A stretch of DNA of 64,000 nucleotides from Bradyrhizobium semiaridum (GTDB lineage: Bacteria > Pseudomonadota > Alphaproteobacteria > Rhizobiales > Xanthobacteraceae): contig NZ_JAGKJJ010000012.1 of assembly GCF_020329505.1 (NCBI RefSeq), forward strand, positions 124,001-188,000, given 5' to 3'. The notes under the pieces were generated by a model. It was not told the DNA's origin, did not search any database, and was given only the letters and a program-made list of their open reading frames with translations. Shown in pieces: positions 8,513-45,209 of this stretch (positions are counted from its first letter, which is position 1; every line of letters begins with the position of its first letter). The position numbers were made by a program, and so were the translations under genes.

Positions 8513-8740
8513 GTCTTGGAATCCCCGGCGGAAGATCTGGCAGGAAGCTAAAACGAGAGAACCGAACAATTCGGCAGGACGATGAACCGCCAGCCGTGAG
8601 GCCGCAATGTGGCGACTGACTAGCTGTAGCCGCACTTTATTTCGACATCATAACGAGTTGCAGCCGCATTTGTTCACGGCGCATTCAGACGCAACGTTCG
8701 GACATGGAATGATCCGCGGCAGAACCGAGGCAGATCTGCT

Positions 8741-39807: not shown

Positions 39808-40410
39808 TCAGGCCCAGGCGCGTTCCCTGAGCTTGGCCTCGTAGGCGTCGATCGAACTCTTCTTCTCCATCGTCAGGCCGATGTCGTCGAGGCCGTTGAT
39901 CAGGCAGTGCTTGCGGAACGGGTCGATCTCGAACTTCACCTTGCCGCCGTCGGGACCGCGGATCTCCTGGTTGGGGAGGTCGATGGTCAGCGTCGCGTTG
40001 GCGCCGCGCTCGGCATCGTCGAACAGCTTGTCGAGGTCTTCCTGCGAGACGCGAATCGGCAGAATGCCGTTCTTGAAGCAGTTGTTGTAGAAGATGTCGC
40101 CGAACGAGGTTGAGATCACGCAGCGGATGCCGAAATCGAGCAGCGCCCAGGGCGCGTGCTCACGGCTCGAGCCGCAACCGAAATTGTCGCCGGCGACCAG
40201 CACCTTGGCGTTACGATAGGCCGGCTGGTTGAGGACGAAATCCGGGTTCTCGCTGCCGTCGTCCTTGTAGCGCTGTTCGGAGAAAAGCCCCTTGCCAAGG
40301 CCGGTGCGCTTGATGGTCTTGAGGTACTGCTTCGGAATGATCATGTCGGTGTCGACATTGATGATCTTCAGCGGCGCCGCGACGCCTTCCAGCGTGGTGA
40401 ACTTGTCCAT
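39808..40410 (-). CDS. leuD: 3-Isopropylmalate dehydratase small subunit
   Basis: A 200-residue swivelling domain subunit that with LeuC isomerises 2- to 3-isopropylmalate. It contains [39 protein letters not shown] (residues 1-39), [27 protein letters not shown] (the [10 protein letters not shown] signature) and [17 protein letters not shown]. Normal length. Here leuD has its own terminator and lies about 3.4 kb from leuC, on the same strand. Confidence 0.98.
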
Positions 40411-40497
40411 CGGAGCAACTTCCCGGTCAAAAAATGGGAGATAAGAGCCCGGTATTTATCGCGAATGTGACAGCGGTAAAAGGGCCATTTCCGCAGG

Positions 40498-40600
40498 GCT
40501 GGAGCTCCCGTTCCGATTAGATCGGACCGGGAGCTCCAGCTTCCTTCTTGGACGTGTTTTCTTCACGCGAACCGGGTCCCACTTCGCTGGAAGACGCTCT
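40498..40600. repeat. Perfect long palindrome plus Bradyrhizobium repeat
   Basis: A 43-base palindrome (40498-40540) has arms GCTGGAGCTCCCG / CGGGAGCTCCAGC and inner arms TCCGAT / ATCGGA around TAG. It is followed by a unit reading GTTTTCTTCACGCGAACCGG then CCCACTTCGCTGGAAGACGC, a common Bradyrhizobium repeat. The last bases overlap the metallopeptidase stop codon. Confidence 0.85.
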
Positions 40601-41000
40601 AGTCCCCCGCATCCGCTTCAATCGCCTCCATATCGGCGTCGGACAGCCCGAAATGGTGGCCGATTTCATGGATCAGGACGTGGCGTACGATGTGGCCGAG
40701 GGTCTCGTCGTGCTCCGCCCAGTAGTCCAGGATCGGCCGGCGGTAGAGCCAGACCAGGTTGGGCAGCCGGGCGACGTCGCGATGGCTCTGCTGAGGCAGG
40801 CCGACGCCATGGAACAGGCCGAGCAGATCGAATTCGCTCTGCGCCTGCATCTCGTCCAGCACCTCGTCGGTCGGAAAATCATCGACCCGGATGATCACGC
40901 CCTCGCAGAGGGTCCGGAAGGTCTTCGGCAGGCGCTCGAACACCTCGTGCGCCATGGCTTCCATTTCGGCCAGCGAGGGGGCTTTGGCTGTGGTCCACAT
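40599..41000 (-). CDS. Zincin-like metallopeptidase family protein
   Basis: A 133-residue cytoplasmic protein of the small metallopeptidase family with HExxH. The zinc motif is HEIGHHFGL (about residues 115-123), preceded by ILDYWAEHDETLGHIVRHVLI. The N-terminal half has FERLPKTFRTLCEGVIIRVDDFP, typical of these proteins. Substrates are unknown, and proteolytic activity is assumed from the motif only. The stop codon lies in a palindromic repeat. Start ATG 41000 after GGAGT. Confidence 0.88.
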   Translation of the reverse strand: MWTTAKAPSLAEMEAMAHEVFERLPKTFRTLCEGVIIRVDDFPTDEVLDEMQAQSEFDLLGLFHGVGLPQQSHRDVARLPNLVWLYRRPILDYWAEHDETLGHIVRHVLIHEIGHHFGLSDADMEAIEADAGD

Positions 41001-41103
41001 GACACTCCTTTAGCGCGAGTGCGGTCCGCCGCGCCAGCGCGGTTGACCTTGGCGGCGCAATGGGAGACCGTGCGGCCCGATAACGGGGTCTCGGGTGGCG
41101 CAA

Positions 41104-41415
41104 ATGAAACGGATCGTGGCGACAGCGCTGTTGGCGGCATCGGTCGGGCTCTCGCTTCCGGCGGCGGGCGCGCAGGCGCAGAGCGCGCAGGATGGCGTCC
41201 GCGTGGCCCAGGCCGCGCCGGAGCGGGTGGTCGAACGCCGCCGGCTGCGGCGCATTCCGATCTACCGGCCCGATCATTGGGAACCGGACGTGATCCCGCG
41301 CTACAATCCCGGTCCGAATGCCGTGCGCGATTGCACCGCGACCTATGTGCAGGAGCACCGGCCGAGCGGCACCGTGATCACGCCACGCATGAACTGTTTC
41401 TGGCGGCCCGGCTAG
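41104..41415 (+). CDS. Small exported protein with basic N-terminal region
   Basis: A 103-residue protein. The signal peptide (MKRIVATALLAASVGLSLPA) ends near AGAQAQ. The mature part has APERVVERRRLRRIPIYRPDHWEPDVIPRYNPGPNAVRDC and two cysteines (in DCTATY and NCFWRPG) that could pair. No domain recognised. The ATG 41104 is preferred to GTG 41095. First of four small exported proteins in the next 2.3 kb, all on the plus strand. Confidence 0.7.
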   Translation: MKRIVATALLAASVGLSLPAAGAQAQSAQDGVRVAQAAPERVVERRRLRRIPIYRPDHWEPDVIPRYNPGPNAVRDCTATYVQEHRPSGTVITPRMNCFWRPG

Positions 41416-41635
41416 CGCATTCTCGATCGAGCGGATTGTTTCTCGCGAGACACGAAAATCGTGCGCTCGCGTGGGAACCTGACGCCGCCTAGCGGCATTC
41501 ACCATCGTGGCGCAGTCATTCTCCATTCACGTCGTCCGCATTCTGCTTGCGATCTGCGTCGCGGCAACGGGGGTCGATTCGATGTTCGGATCGTCGTTGC
41601 GAGACGTGACATCCAGAAAATCGAGGAGACGACAG

Positions 41636-41869
41636 ATGAAGGTGACGAAGGTTCTGGGGCTTGCCGCTGTCGGCGCGGTGCTTGCGCTCGCGGCACCGGC
41701 CGAGCGCGCGCAAGCGTTCTCGCTTGCGACTCCGGGTGCCGTGGCAACGGTTCAGGACAATGCGAACCCGACCACCACGCAAGTGCGCTGGCATGGCGGC
41801 CGCGGATGGCACCGCGGGTGGCATCGCGGATATCACCGCGGCTGGCATCGTCGTCACTGGCGCCACTGA
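41636..41869 (+). CDS. Small exported His/Trp/Arg-rich protein, TPGAV family
   Basis: A 77-residue protein. A signal peptide of about 27 residues ends near RAQA, then SLATPGAVATVQDNANPTTT and QVRW, then a tail of repeated WHRG/YHRG units (HRGWHRGYHRGWHRRHWRH). The segment before the tail aligns without gaps to the Gly-rich protein at 42785. The tail has histidines and tryptophans in regular spacing and may bind metal. A strong GAGGAG ribosome site precedes ATG 41636, and a terminator lies at 41899. Not assigned to any characterised family. Confidence 0.75.
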   Translation: MKVTKVLGLAAVGAVLALAAPAERAQAFSLATPGAVATVQDNANPTTTQVRWHGGRGWHRGWHRGYHRGWHRRHWRH

Positions 41870-41898
41870 TCGCGCGGCGTTTCAGCGCAGTTGAGACA

Positions 41899-41930
41899 CA
41901 GGCCCGTGGGCAGCGGGCCTGTTGTCGTTG
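41899..41930 (+). terminator. Rho-independent terminator of the WHRG-repeat gene
   Basis: The stem CAGGCCCG / CGGGCCTG (41899-41921) has a seven-base loop and is followed by TTGTCGTTG. It is 30 bases after the stop codon. The T-run is interrupted, so strength is uncertain. Confidence 0.7.
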
Positions 41931-41997
41931 TCAGCCACGAAAGCGGCAGATTCGCACGCGCGAGATGACTCTCATCGCAATCTGTCAGGAGTTGATC

Positions 41998-42309
41998 ATG
42001 ATGAGACGGATCGGTGTTGCCGCGGTCGCCGGCGCGTTCGCATTGGCGGCGCCTGCAGCCGCACATGCTGCGTCACCGGCCAAGCCGCAAGCTGCCGCCC
42101 AACAGCGGCACGCCGGCAAGGCGACGGACTTCAGCGCGCAGCATCATCACCGCCGTTACCATCATCACCACCATCACTACGGCCACCGGCCGTACGACCG
42201 GCCCTACGTCTATCGGCCCTACTACTACGGACGGCCTTACGCCTACCGGCCGTATCCGTACGCCGTGCCGGCGCCATTCACGTTCGGCTTCGGGTTCGGC
42301 CCATTCTGA
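41998..42309 (+). CDS. Small exported His/Tyr/Pro-rich protein
   Basis: A 103-residue protein with a signal peptide (MMRRIGVAAVAGAFALAAPA, ending at AHAASP). The mature part starts with an Ala/Gln-rich linker, then a His cluster (QHHHRRYHHHHHHYGHR), then repeats of RPY/RPYYYGRPYAYRPYPY and a Phe/Gly end (FTFGFGFGPF). No cysteine. The run of histidines can bind transition metals, but function is not known. ATG 41998 and 42001 are adjacent; AGGAG lies nine bases before. Confidence 0.75.
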   Translation: MMRRIGVAAVAGAFALAAPAAAHAASPAKPQAAAQQRHAGKATDFSAQHHHRRYHHHHHHYGHRPYDRPYVYRPYYYGRPYAYRPYPYAVPAPFTFGFGFGPF

Positions 42310-42784
42310 TCGCGCACGCGATGCGTGTTGCGCATGACGTGAGAGAAGCGAGCAGCTCCGATTGATCGAAGCTGCGAGTGGTCGGTCATCTTGAGAGCAT
42401 GTGAGTGTATGACTCGCGAGCGGCGCCGGATATTCAACGTCGTCCTGGCGAAAGCTAGGCCCCATTACCCCAGCAGCTGGTTGTTGCGTGACGTTGGGCC
42501 GCAATCCCGCTCTCAATCAAATTCGGTGGTTATGGGTCCTGGCTTTCGCCAGGACGACGGCGTGGTGAGACCGCTCATCACGACGCTATCACCGTCACCG
42601 TGAGATGCACGATGACATCGACCGTCACGACGGTTCCTTCCGGACGTTTCGTCGCACCTCTTGCGTGTTCATGGCGCATTCACTTCGGCCTTTCTAGCGT
42701 CATGCCGGGAGCGACTGCAATGAACGCGTGAAGCCAGCTGCTGTGCAGCGCGGTTCTCATTGTCGTTGTCAGGGAGGTTGAGAA
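42310..42784. other. Intergenic region with a repeat
   Basis: About 475 bases without a convincing gene. A palindromic repeat occupies 42438-42558. The last ~200 bases before 42785 should include the promoter of the Gly/His-rich protein. No clear sigma-70 or ECF promoter was recognised. Confidence 0.6.
42438..42558. repeat. Palindromic repeat (GTCGTCCTGGCGAAAGC type)
   Basis: The left end GTCGTCCTGGCGAAAGC and right end GGCTTTCGCCAGGACGAC are inverted copies about 80 bases apart. It resembles the unit at 3103-3215. Confidence 0.8.
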
Positions 42785-43405
42785 ATGAACGAGAGCTATC
42801 TGGGACGCGGGCTGCGCCGCGTCGGCGTCGCGGCGGCCGCGATCGTCGCGCTGTCGATCGCCTCGCAGCAGCGCGCCGAAGCATTGTCGCCCATGACCCC
42901 GGGCGCGGTGCCTGCGGCGAAGCACGCAAGCGACGCGATCACGACGCAGGCCCGCCATGGTCCCGGCGGCGGAGGCGGCTTCCATGGTGGTGGAGGTTTC
43001 CGCGGCGGCGGTGGTTTTCACGGCGGTGGTTTCCGCGGCGGCGGATTCCACGGCGGCGGGATGCACGGTGGAGGCTTCCGAGGTTTCCACGGTGGAGGCT
43101 TCCGCGGCTTCCATGGCGGCGGCGTCCGCATCGCGCCCGCCTTCCACGGCGGCTTTCGCCATGGCGGGTTCCATCGCCATTACGGTGGCTACCACCGCTT
43201 CTATGGCGGCGGCTATCGCTACGCCTACCGGCCGCATTTCCGCCGGCACTACCATCACCGGCGCTTCTTCTACACGCCGTCCTATTACTACCCGGCCTAC
43301 TATCACCATCGCCGCTGCCGGGTGATCTGGACCTATTACGGGCCGCGCCGAATCTGCCGGCCGTGGTACCGCCATCACTACTACCGGCCCTACGGCTATT
43401 GGTAA
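42785..43405 (+). CDS. Exported Gly/His/Tyr-rich protein, TPGAV family
   Basis: A 206-residue protein. A signal-like N-terminus (GRGLRRVGVAAAAIVALSIA) ends near RAEALS. The segment RAEALSPMTPGAVPAAKHAS plus DAITTQARHGP aligns without gaps to the protein at 41636. A Gly-rich block follows, built from GGGF[HR]GGG repeats. The C-terminal third is rich in His, Tyr and Arg (RHYHHRRFFYTPSYYYPAYYHHRRC) and has two cysteines (RRC and RRIC). It ends in a terminator. Predicted disordered and secreted; the role (metal binding, adhesion or matrix) is open. Confidence 0.8.
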   Translation: MNESYLGRGLRRVGVAAAAIVALSIASQQRAEALSPMTPGAVPAAKHASDAITTQARHGPGGGGGFHGGGGFRGGGGFHGGGFRGGGFHGGGMHGGGFRGFHGGGFRGFHGGGVRIAPAFHGGFRHGGFHRHYGGYHRFYGGGYRYAYRPHFRRHYHHRRFFYTPSYYYPAYYHHRRCRVIWTYYGPRRICRPWYRHHYYRPYGYW

Positions 43406-43420
43406 GGGCGGAAATGACAG

Positions 43421-43446
43421 CGGGCGCCAAACGGCGCCCGTTTGTT
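43421..43446 (+). terminator. Rho-independent terminator of the Gly/His-rich gene
   Basis: The stem CGGGCGCC / GGCGCCCG has an AAAC loop and is followed by TTTGTT. It begins 16 bases after the stop codon. Confidence 0.9.
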
Positions 43447-43465
43447 CGGTCCATGCCGTGCAGGC

Positions 43466-43675
43466 CTAATCCCGGTCGGTGAGCTTCCAGGGCTTGACCT
43501 TCCACGGCGTCAGGTTTTCCAGCCGCCACTGTGTCCAGCGCTCCGGCGGCCAGTGGCTGAGGCGCGAGGTCTCCTTCACGACCGGCAGCGGATCGACGAT
43601 GCGCGGCGCCGCGCGGCGGCGCTTCTGCCGCGTCGCCTCGCTGATCATATCGACGAAATCGGACTTGTCCGCCAC
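43466..43675 (-). CDS. Small conserved basic protein, function unknown
   Basis: A 69-residue cytoplasmic protein starting at GTG 43675, with GAGGAG in the right place upstream (43681-43690). The N-terminus is acidic (ADKSDFVDMISEATRQ), the middle is basic (KRRRAAPRIV), and the C-terminus is Trp/Pro-rich (WPPERWTQWRLENLTPWKVKPWKLTDRD). No domain recognised. The good ribosome site and the composition support a real gene. It faces the Gly/His-rich gene, and the terminator lies between them. Confidence 0.65.
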   Translation of the reverse strand: MADKSDFVDMISEATRQKRRRAAPRIVDPLPVVKETSRLSHWPPERWTQWRLENLTPWKVKPWKLTDRD

Positions 43676-43802
43676 GGCCGGCTCCTCGCGAGACTTGAAT
43701 TCGCAAGGGCCAGTGTGCGTGCCGGCCGTTAACGACCCGTTTCCGCAACGGCTCGAGCTTGAGACAAGAGCCGCAGCGTTTTCGAGCGAACTGCTCCGAC
43801 AA

Positions 43803-45209
43803 CTACCGCCAGTCGCGCACGTCGACGAAGTGGCCGGCGATCGCGGCGGCGGCGGCCATCGCGGGCGACACCAGATGGGTGCGGCCCTTGAAGCCCTGGC
43901 GGCCCTCGAAGTTGCGGTTCGAGGTCGAGGCGCAGCGCTCTTCCGGCTTCAGCTTGTCCGGGTTCATCGCAAGGCACATCGAGCAGCCCGGCTCGCGCCA
44001 GTCGAAGCCGGCCGCAATGAAGATCTTGTCGAGGCCTTCGGCTTCCGCCTGCTCCTTCACGATGCCCGAGCCCGGCACGATCATCGCGTTGACATTGGCG
44101 TTGACGGTCTTGCCCTCGGCGATCTTCGCCGCGGCGCGCAGGTCCTCGATGCGGCCGTTGGTGCAGGAGCCGATGAAGACGCGGTCGAGCTTGATGTCGG
44201 TGATCTTCGTCCCCGCGGTCAGGCCCATGTATTTCAGCGCGCGGTGCTTGGAGAGGCGCTTGGCCTCGTCCTCGATCTTGTCGGGGTCGGGCACGTAGCC
44301 AGTCACCGAGATGACGTCCTCGGGGCTGGTGCCCCAGGTGACGATCGGCGGCAGCTTGGCCGCGTCGAGCCGGATCTCGTGATCGAAATGCGCGCCCTCG
44401 TCGGAGCGCAGCGTCTCCCAGTAGCGCATCGCGGCGTCCCAGGCGGCGCCCTTCGGTGCCTTCGGCCGGCCGCGCAGGAAGTCGAACGCCTTCTGGTCGG
44501 GCGCGACCAGACCGGCGCGCGCGCCGCCTTCGATCGACATGTTGCAGACCGTCATGCGGCCTTCCATCGAGAGCGCACGGATCGCCTCGCCGGCATATTC
44601 CAGCACGTAGCCGGTGCCGCCGGCGGTGCCGATCTCGCCGATGATCGCCAGGATGATGTCCTTGCCGGTGACGCCGTCCGGCAGCTTGCCGTCGACCACC
44701 GCGCGCATGTTCTTGGCCTTCTTCTGGATCAGCGTCTGCGTCGCCAGCACGTGCTCGACCTCCGAGGTGCCGATGCCGTGAGCGAGCGCGCCGAACGCGC
44801 CGTGCGTCGAAGTGTGGCTGTCACCGCAGACGATGGTGGTGCCGGGCAGCGTGAAACCCTGCTCGGGGCCGATGACGTGGACGATGCCCTGGCGCTTGTC
44901 GAACTCGTTGTAATACTCGATGCCGAATTCCTTGGCGTTCTCTGCCATCACCCGCATCTGCTCGATGCTTTCAGGATCGGGATTCGGCTTCGAACGGTCG
45001 GTGGTCGGGATGTTGTGGTCGACGACGGCGAGCGTCTTCTCCGGTGCGTGCACCTTGCGGCCGGCGGCGCGCAGGCCTTCGAACGCCTGCGGCGAGGTCA
45101 CCTCGTGCACCAGATGGCGATCGATGTAGAGCAGGCAGGTGCCGTCCTCGGCTTCGTGCACCAGATGGTCGTTCCAGATCTTGTCGTACAGCGTGGTCGG
45201 TTTGGACAT
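43803..45209 (-). CDS. leuC: 3-Isopropylmalate dehydratase large subunit
   Basis: A 468-residue [4Fe-4S] aconitase-like subunit of the leucine pathway. Cluster cysteines are seen in [16 protein letters not shown] (about residues 345-360) and in [12 protein letters not shown] (about 405-416). [45 protein letters not shown] and [20 protein letters not shown] are family blocks. It works with LeuD. It is downstream of rplS on the same strand but separated by a terminator and 345 bases, so it has its own promoter. Confidence 0.98.

Follow-up and report, generated by a model that had tools for sequence, protein, structure and literature searches.

We analysed a stretch of 64,000 nucleotides from the 6.7 Mb genome of Bradyrhizobium semiaridum (contig NZ_JAGKJJ010000012.1, positions 124,001 to 188,000 of the forward strand), hereafter the window, in which four plus-strand genes encoding small proteins are clustered within 2.3 kb. 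An initial annotation, made from the sequence without database searches, had described all four products as carrying signal peptides, and two of them as sharing a segment behind it, here called the head, that precedes unlike low-complexity tails. The four frames were confirmed and their starts are signal-peptide-like by eye. The genes and heads are as follows (positions are those of the window).

41104..41415, plus strand: gene 1, from its translation a small exported protein of 103 amino acids with a predicted C-terminal hairpin
41636..41869, plus strand: short-type head gene (short gene), 77 amino acids with a WHRG tail, from translation and profile
41998..42309, plus strand: gene 3, small exported His/Tyr/Pro-rich protein with an ATDFSAQ motif and a C-terminal FGFGFGPF
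42785..43405, plus strand: long-type head gene (long gene), 206 amino acids with GGGF[HR] repeats, a Tyr/His/Arg stretch and a predicted C-terminal hairpin
41702..41791, plus strand: shared head of the short gene, residues 23-52
42869..42958, plus strand: shared head of the long gene, residues 29-58

Small exported low-complexity proteins are hard to study because they offer few ties to a process. The handles here are a fixed place in 11 genera, two old lines of paralogues, an element predicted to fold, and a DNA site that is both precise and conserved.

Homology of the heads and conservation of the locus

Aligned without gaps, the two window heads are identical at 13 of 30 positions, including RAxAxS, TPGAV, TTQ and an R, much as first described. 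Using BLOSUM62, we scored 100,000 shuffles of one head at 11 offsets each; the observed score of 58 was reached by none of them and thus lies outside the shuffled range, which ended at 43, and 13 identities were reached by a single shuffle. Furthermore, a profile built from long-type heads only picked up the window short gene at an expectation value (E) of 4.3e-12, and other short members at E 5e-19 to 4e-6, among 10,583 frames of the fetched regions. The likeness of the two heads is therefore homology. That the likeness might be an effect of chance or composition is conceivable in so far as signal peptides resemble one another, as the mostly partial matches outside the family suggest; the shuffles, the profile matches across genera, the synteny and the direct repeat common to both genes refute this explanation, and we rejected it as having a negligible probability. 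Both window genes carry a signal peptide, judged by eye, followed by the head pattern RA.A.S...PG/T....TT.V[RH]. Within it, RAxA resembles the C-terminal end of a signal peptide, which would leave about 25 residues of shared mature sequence.

The initial annotation had suggested a profile search for further members, and such members were found. As the genome searches scored a limited number of first-look candidates per genome, the match counts are lower bounds. With a 49-residue head query taken from the long gene, at least 99 of 117 genomes of the genus were matched at E 0.01, at least one of them (G003) through its short-type gene only, and at least 14 of 119 genomes of a family sample. A head profile of 26 rows found, at E 0.001, at least 111 of 296 genomes of a family sample; they belong to 14 of 47 genera, and the three genera g9, g12 and g21 were reached only with E above 1e-5. 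In an order sample, the same search yielded at E 0.01 at least 26 of 297 genomes: ten belong to the same family and match at E 1.5e-16 or better, and the 16 matches outside the family all have E 0.0011 or worse and are mostly partial. A profile of the long C-terminal element found three of 199 genomes outside the family (E 0.002-0.01), every match with an internal stop; the search for gene 1 in 199 genomes gave nothing beyond the genus, and the long protein had no match in the plasmid collection. Within the own genome, the head profile identified both head genes and gave a weak hit to gene 3 at E 5.9e-4; the remaining eight hits had E 0.397 or worse (150 of 166 candidates scored).

To relate heads and tails, we built a tree of 156 heads over 51 columns, in which many forks are unresolved and the bootstrap had not settled. 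Tail type changed twice on this tree, compared with a mean of 52 changes when the labels were shuffled; one group of long-type heads (L199, L200 and L202) landed on the short side with weak support. On this evidence, the short and long genes are two old, mostly separate paralogous lines that arose by an old duplication and, with this weakly placed exception, each kept its own kind of tail. The earlier idea of a shared head joined to a variable tail is therefore retained as regards the head family and the difference between the two tails, but not as regards modularity: with so few tail-type changes the tails did not swap freely between heads, and tail swapping was rejected in favour of two old lines.

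The four genes are enclosed by two blocks of minus-strand genes, on the leuD and the leuC side.

39808-40410, minus strand: leuD-like gene with an aconitase C-terminal domain
40599-41000, minus strand: gene for a zincin-like metallopeptidase, flanking the four-gene cluster on the leuD side
43466-43675, minus strand: short open frame on the leuC side, without a Pfam match
43803-45209, minus strand: leuC-like gene of the aconitase family

The two genes with aconitase domains are presumably leuC and leuD. We compared 115 regions around matches, hand-picked for spread, of which 75 came from head-query hits in the genus and family and 40 from profile hits in the family; the 3-kb region L058 was left out of this set, the window was added, and in L111 the profile found no head. 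Among the other 114 regions, 108 have the leuD-like gene and gene 1 where expected and on the expected strand, and 104 have the leuC-like gene so. The full order leuD, gene 1, head gene(s), leuC was found in 100 of 114 regions, the window included, and in 11 genera. Among the 14 exceptions, three (L067, L198 and L199) are cut at the leuD side by contig ends, L207 has neither leuD nor gene 1, two (L224 and L225) lie away from the leu genes, and eight lack only the leuC match within the stretch fetched. Both window head genes lie between leuD/gene 1 and leuC, the place by which membership was judged. Both types of head gene occur together in 46 regions, the short type alone in 29 and the long type alone in 37.

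Gene 1 has a homologue in 111 of 115 regions, the window included (tblastn); it does not belong to the head family. A TD[VFL]SAQ motif followed by basic residues is common to genes 1 and 3 of many relatives; in the window it is present in gene 3 and not in gene 1. Gene 3, which as first noted carries a run of histidines, is kept at the locus in some genomes only.

Some regions differ in detail. The distance between the short and long genes is about 3 kb in L057 (G069) and L067 (G089) compared with the usual 1 kb or so, which suggests an insertion between them. In L116 (G121), the long gene enters a stretch of N with unlike surrounding sequence and its frame is unreadable as one protein. L224 and L225 encode distant head-like exported proteins (E 3e-5 and 1e-5) with Cys-containing tails, have no leu genes in the stretch fetched, and may link the family to a broader class of small exported proteins.

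The upstream direct repeat and its candidate regulators

Upstream of both paralogues we found the pattern CATTCA-NNN-CGC[AG]TTCACGTC, followed after 8 bases by TAnnnT and located in most cases some 95-130 bp ahead of the start codon chosen; its half-sites are two [AG]TTCA, 11 bp apart. The core repeat, RTTCA-N6-RTTCA, occurs within 300 nt upstream of 70 of 76 short genes and 79 of 83 long genes; of the 46 regions holding the two genes, 36 have it before each of them. In the controls it was found before none of 111 copies of gene 1 (a few of them cut by contig ends or with an uncertain start), before none of 18 copies of gene 3, and in 73 of 3000 windows of 300 nt drawn at random from the same regions, a count that includes the real sites; from mononucleotide shuffles, 0.05 and 0.1 direct repeats were expected. 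In the window the corresponding sites are:

42666..42700, plus strand: candidate operator and -10-like element of the long gene, TGTTCATGGCGCATTCACTTC-N8-TAGCGT
41517..41533, plus strand: degenerate direct repeat of the short gene, its half-sites about 7 bp apart and not 11, aligned with eight relatives

The long-gene site has 3 mismatches to the full pattern, with 0 such sites expected by chance. At the repeat position of the short gene, near relatives such as L107 have CATTCACATCCCATTCACGTC, whereas the window has CATTCTCCATTCACGTC. The repeat is also missing before the short gene in L056, L074, L104, L108 and L124, and before the long gene in L199, L200, L202 and L208; in the first three of the latter, the long gene sits about 250 bp behind a site-bearing short gene, so the two may be co-transcribed.

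In near relatives, strong conservation extends over the leader from the repeat to the start of the short gene (41530-41635; GCGATCTGCGTCGCGGCAACGG, GACGTGACATC), and the leader of the long gene contains a conserved GGGAGCGAC. An Rfam scan over 40400-43900 gave one hit, at E 0.096 and under the gathering score. A second RTTCA-N6-RTTCA site in the window lies at 8672-8687 on the plus strand (GTTCACGGCGCATTCA).

Screening 11 genomes of the genus with a shorter pattern and allowing one mismatch, we obtained 30 sites, and none with the pattern read backward. Ten of them precede head genes of the locus, eight long and two short; of the eight, one was read directly and seven were assigned by coordinates relative to head-query matches, the one in the own genome being also matched directly. 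Eight further sites lie before genes of a small exported Cys/Gly family, GCGPGWYRGPYGGCRP...VCPYGFRWYAGRCRP (L242, L236, L247, L239, L251, L256, L253 and L257), and two before an exported protein with WTPGYW repeats (L248 and L252). The DNA site is common to both paralogues and, within the genus, also precedes genes of two further families of small exported proteins; identifying its reader would give the inducing condition. In the own genome, two site patterns find the long-gene site only. In L241, from genome G231 of a different family in the order, a small exported protein containing Cys is preceded by a similar site with 2 mismatches.

An 11-bp direct repeat in the place of the -35 element is typical of regulators of the OmpR/PhoB family. 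In PhoB-type promoters, half-sites 11 bp apart replace the -35 element and the -10 element follows at a fixed distance. The sites at the locus have the same spacing and -35 layout, with [AG]TTCA as half-site where PhoB-type promoters have TGTCA. In most relatives each paralogue is preceded by its own [AG]TTCA repeat, at the position expected of a -35 element, and by the TAnnnT -10-like element at a fixed distance, the layout by which a response regulator of the OmpR/PhoB family would recruit RNA polymerase. We compared the repeat with regulators described in alphaproteobacteria, as far as the accessible parts of the papers go. The CenR regulon of Rhodobacter sphaeroides has the site TGA-N8-TGA before many genes for exported proteins, and 28 of 31 sites are co-directional with transcription and lie just upstream of the -35 element (PMC9275681). 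Like the CenR site as given there, the site at the locus is a repeat with an 11-bp period and reads TGAA-N7-TGAA on the opposite strand; unlike it, the site would run against transcription and occupies the -35 place, so that a co-directional TGA-N8-TGA upstream of the -35 element was not found here. Because of this difference in orientation and position, CenR is a doubtful candidate. ChvI, an envelope regulator of the same class, was rejected, since its sites in the portion of the paper available, N-GCC-N8-GCC in S. meliloti and TTGC-N3-GCAA in Caulobacter, are unlike the repeat at the locus (PMC9731502). No site matching the repeat appeared in the accessible text of PMC10659215, PMC9491525 and PMC10538546.

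An envelope-stress regulator is nevertheless a reasonable guess by analogy with BA14K, a small exported protein from a related member of the order: according to the part of the report that was accessible, expression of this secreted Brucella protein is lower upon deletion of cenR or essRS (PMC10746171). The locus differs in that the four window proteins have no BA14K-type match in Pfam or NCBIfam.

Tails, predicted hairpins and proposed function

Tail composition was determined for 76 short proteins from residue 51 and for 82 long proteins from residue 61. The short tails consist of 43% His, 25% Arg and 13% Trp; their 2639 residues include 660 Arg and 18 acidic residues but not a single Lys. 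The long tails contain 28% Gly, 15% Arg, 13% His, 13% Tyr and 8.5% Phe, and their 10,504 residues include 1543 Arg, 23 Lys and 15 acidic residues; 73 of the 82 have neither Asp nor Glu. The strong preference for Arg over Lys (660:0 and 1543:23) is a physical hint about the binding partners of the tails. In the long gene of the window, the Gly codons vary synonymously (27 GGC, 12 GGT, 6 GGA and 4 GGG), which suggests that the repeats were kept as protein and are not freshly copied DNA.

The amount of His could mean that the short protein, gene 3 and the long protein form a periplasmic metal buffer that holds and releases, or sequesters, Cu, Ni or Zn, as the initial annotation had hinted for the tails. 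While the 43% His of the short tails and the His run of gene 3 are in line with this explanation, the His fraction varies widely, from 0.16 to 0.69 in short tails (median 0.42 per protein) and from 0 to 0.25 in long tails, and the 27-residue short tail of the window has more Arg (8) than His (7), next to 5 Trp. Moreover, none of the five flanking genes scanned was recognised as encoding a metal transporter or metal regulator, and a hit to the zinc-uptake protein ZrgA in one of 14 short members (E 0.098) is probably low-complexity noise. We therefore consider a metal buffer rather unlikely.

The composition of the long tails, rich in Gly, Arg, Tyr, His and Phe and poor in Lys and acids, would also suit proteins that assemble into a coat or condensate, i.e. 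a surface or periplasmic layer, presumably comparable to glycine-rich wall proteins or sulfur-globule proteins. Ten of the 31 long members weakly match the glycine-rich protein family PF07172 (best E 3.4e-5); these matches agree with such a layer but may reflect glycine content alone, since head and hairpin are not defining features of that family and the window protein has no match; besides, the short protein has no Gly/Tyr part. This structural role seems unlikely.

The same scans gave nothing else usable. The proteins and alignments compared with Pfam, NCBIfam and PADLOC yielded no usable curated family, in keeping with the earlier remark that no function is described for these proteins; TAT_signal_seq matched one of 31 long members (E 0.093) and not the window protein, for which a twin-arginine signal is thus not indicated. 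In the literature covered, which left most subscription journals outside its scope, we found no description of these proteins, and text searches with sequence motifs were unmatched.

The end of the long protein, previously called Tyr/His-rich, turned out to be a conserved element, CR[VI][IV]WTYYGPR[RK][IV]CR, for which AlphaFold predicts a beta-hairpin, as it does for the end of gene 1.

43316..43357, plus strand: predicted C-terminal beta-hairpin of the long protein, residues 178-191, Cys178 opposite Cys191 (AlphaFold)
41323..41406, plus strand: predicted beta-hairpin of gene 1, residues 74-101, Cys77 opposite Cys98 (AlphaFold)

In the long protein the predicted strands span residues 178-183 and 186-191, the mean predicted local distance difference test score (pLDDT) being 89 for block 181-190 and 58-60 for its neighbours, and Cys178, Thr183, Gly186 and Cys191 are invariant in 31 of 31 aligned members. 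In gene 1 the strands span residues 74-86 and 89-101 (block pLDDT 89-96), Cys77 and Cys98 are invariant in an alignment of 30 sequences, and comparison of the model with the PDB gave nothing at E 0.001 or better. Since the Cys residues oppose each other and export is presumed, disulfides are likely in both hairpins.

A cationic, Trp-rich short tail and a Cys-paired hairpin bearing Arg on either side, which we would liken to animal hairpin antimicrobial peptides, could also belong to exported cationic peptides that harm competitors. However, the place of the genes is kept across 11 genera and the four hairpin residues are invariant in 31 sequences; the defence-library scan gave no match, and no immunity or dedicated export gene was recognised in the five flanking genes scanned, although no search was aimed at such genes. 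An antimicrobial function thus appears very unlikely.

Our preferred reading, which is tentative and falls short of an even chance, is that the locus encodes old, family-restricted small exported proteins of the envelope that are under control of an OmpR/PhoB-type regulator and whose tails bind envelope polyanions. The proteins would be exported by the general secretory (Sec) route and cleaved after AxA, and the mature head with its disordered, Arg-rich, nearly acid-free aromatic tail would be retained in the periplasm or outer layers. There the tails would most likely bind polyanions such as lipopolysaccharide, capsule, peptidoglycan acids or DNA by Arg and aromatic contacts, to which His may add metal or pH sensitivity, and the Cys-paired hairpin ending the long protein and gene 1 would serve as a folded, oxidised cap. 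A wider version would make the locus the best-conserved portion of an envelope-response regulon found in Bradyrhizobium and the rest of the family. In this version, which we regard as quite unlikely, one OmpR/PhoB-type regulator would read the 11-bp [AG]TTCA repeat and activate several unrelated small exported families, and the Arg/aromatic proteins among them would form a condensate-like coat on the envelope.

Several observations weigh against the preferred reading. Regions with a single head gene are many (29 with the short type only, 37 with the long type only), and L111 (G032), fetched on a match with E 0.0065, has no head by profile. The model of the long protein is poor beyond the hairpin, with a whole-model mean pLDDT of 50. 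Mean ratios of nonsynonymous to synonymous differences (pN/pS) in the genus are 0.47 for the long head, 0.53 for the short head and 0.32 for the long C-terminal element; they count in favour of the reading as a sign of constraint, but values near 0.5 indicate weak constraint, the pairs are non-independent, and the short set may include up to two misfiled long members. As regards the DNA site, ten of the 30 sites in the genus do not precede a recognised small exported gene, and those of L250, L264 and L267 appear by eye to fall in coding sequence. A related pattern with two mismatches gave 19 listed sites in 13 genomes compared with 1 in the backward control, and its sole site in the own genome (L238) is not before a recognised exported gene. 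Finally, neither a search of the window nor the alignment with relatives revealed an intact repeat at the window short gene, and shared control of both paralogues is therefore not supported for the own genome.

One further feature lies within the cluster and is not thought to belong to the system.

42438..42559, strand not assigned: inverted repeat in the interval from gene 3 to the long gene, its 46-nt arms 80% complementary

Its outer ends are CGTCGTCCTGGCGAAAGC and GCTTTCGCCAGGACGACG, and within the window only its own two arms match. We regard it as a neighbour, presumably a repeated intergenic element of the genus, which it resembles.

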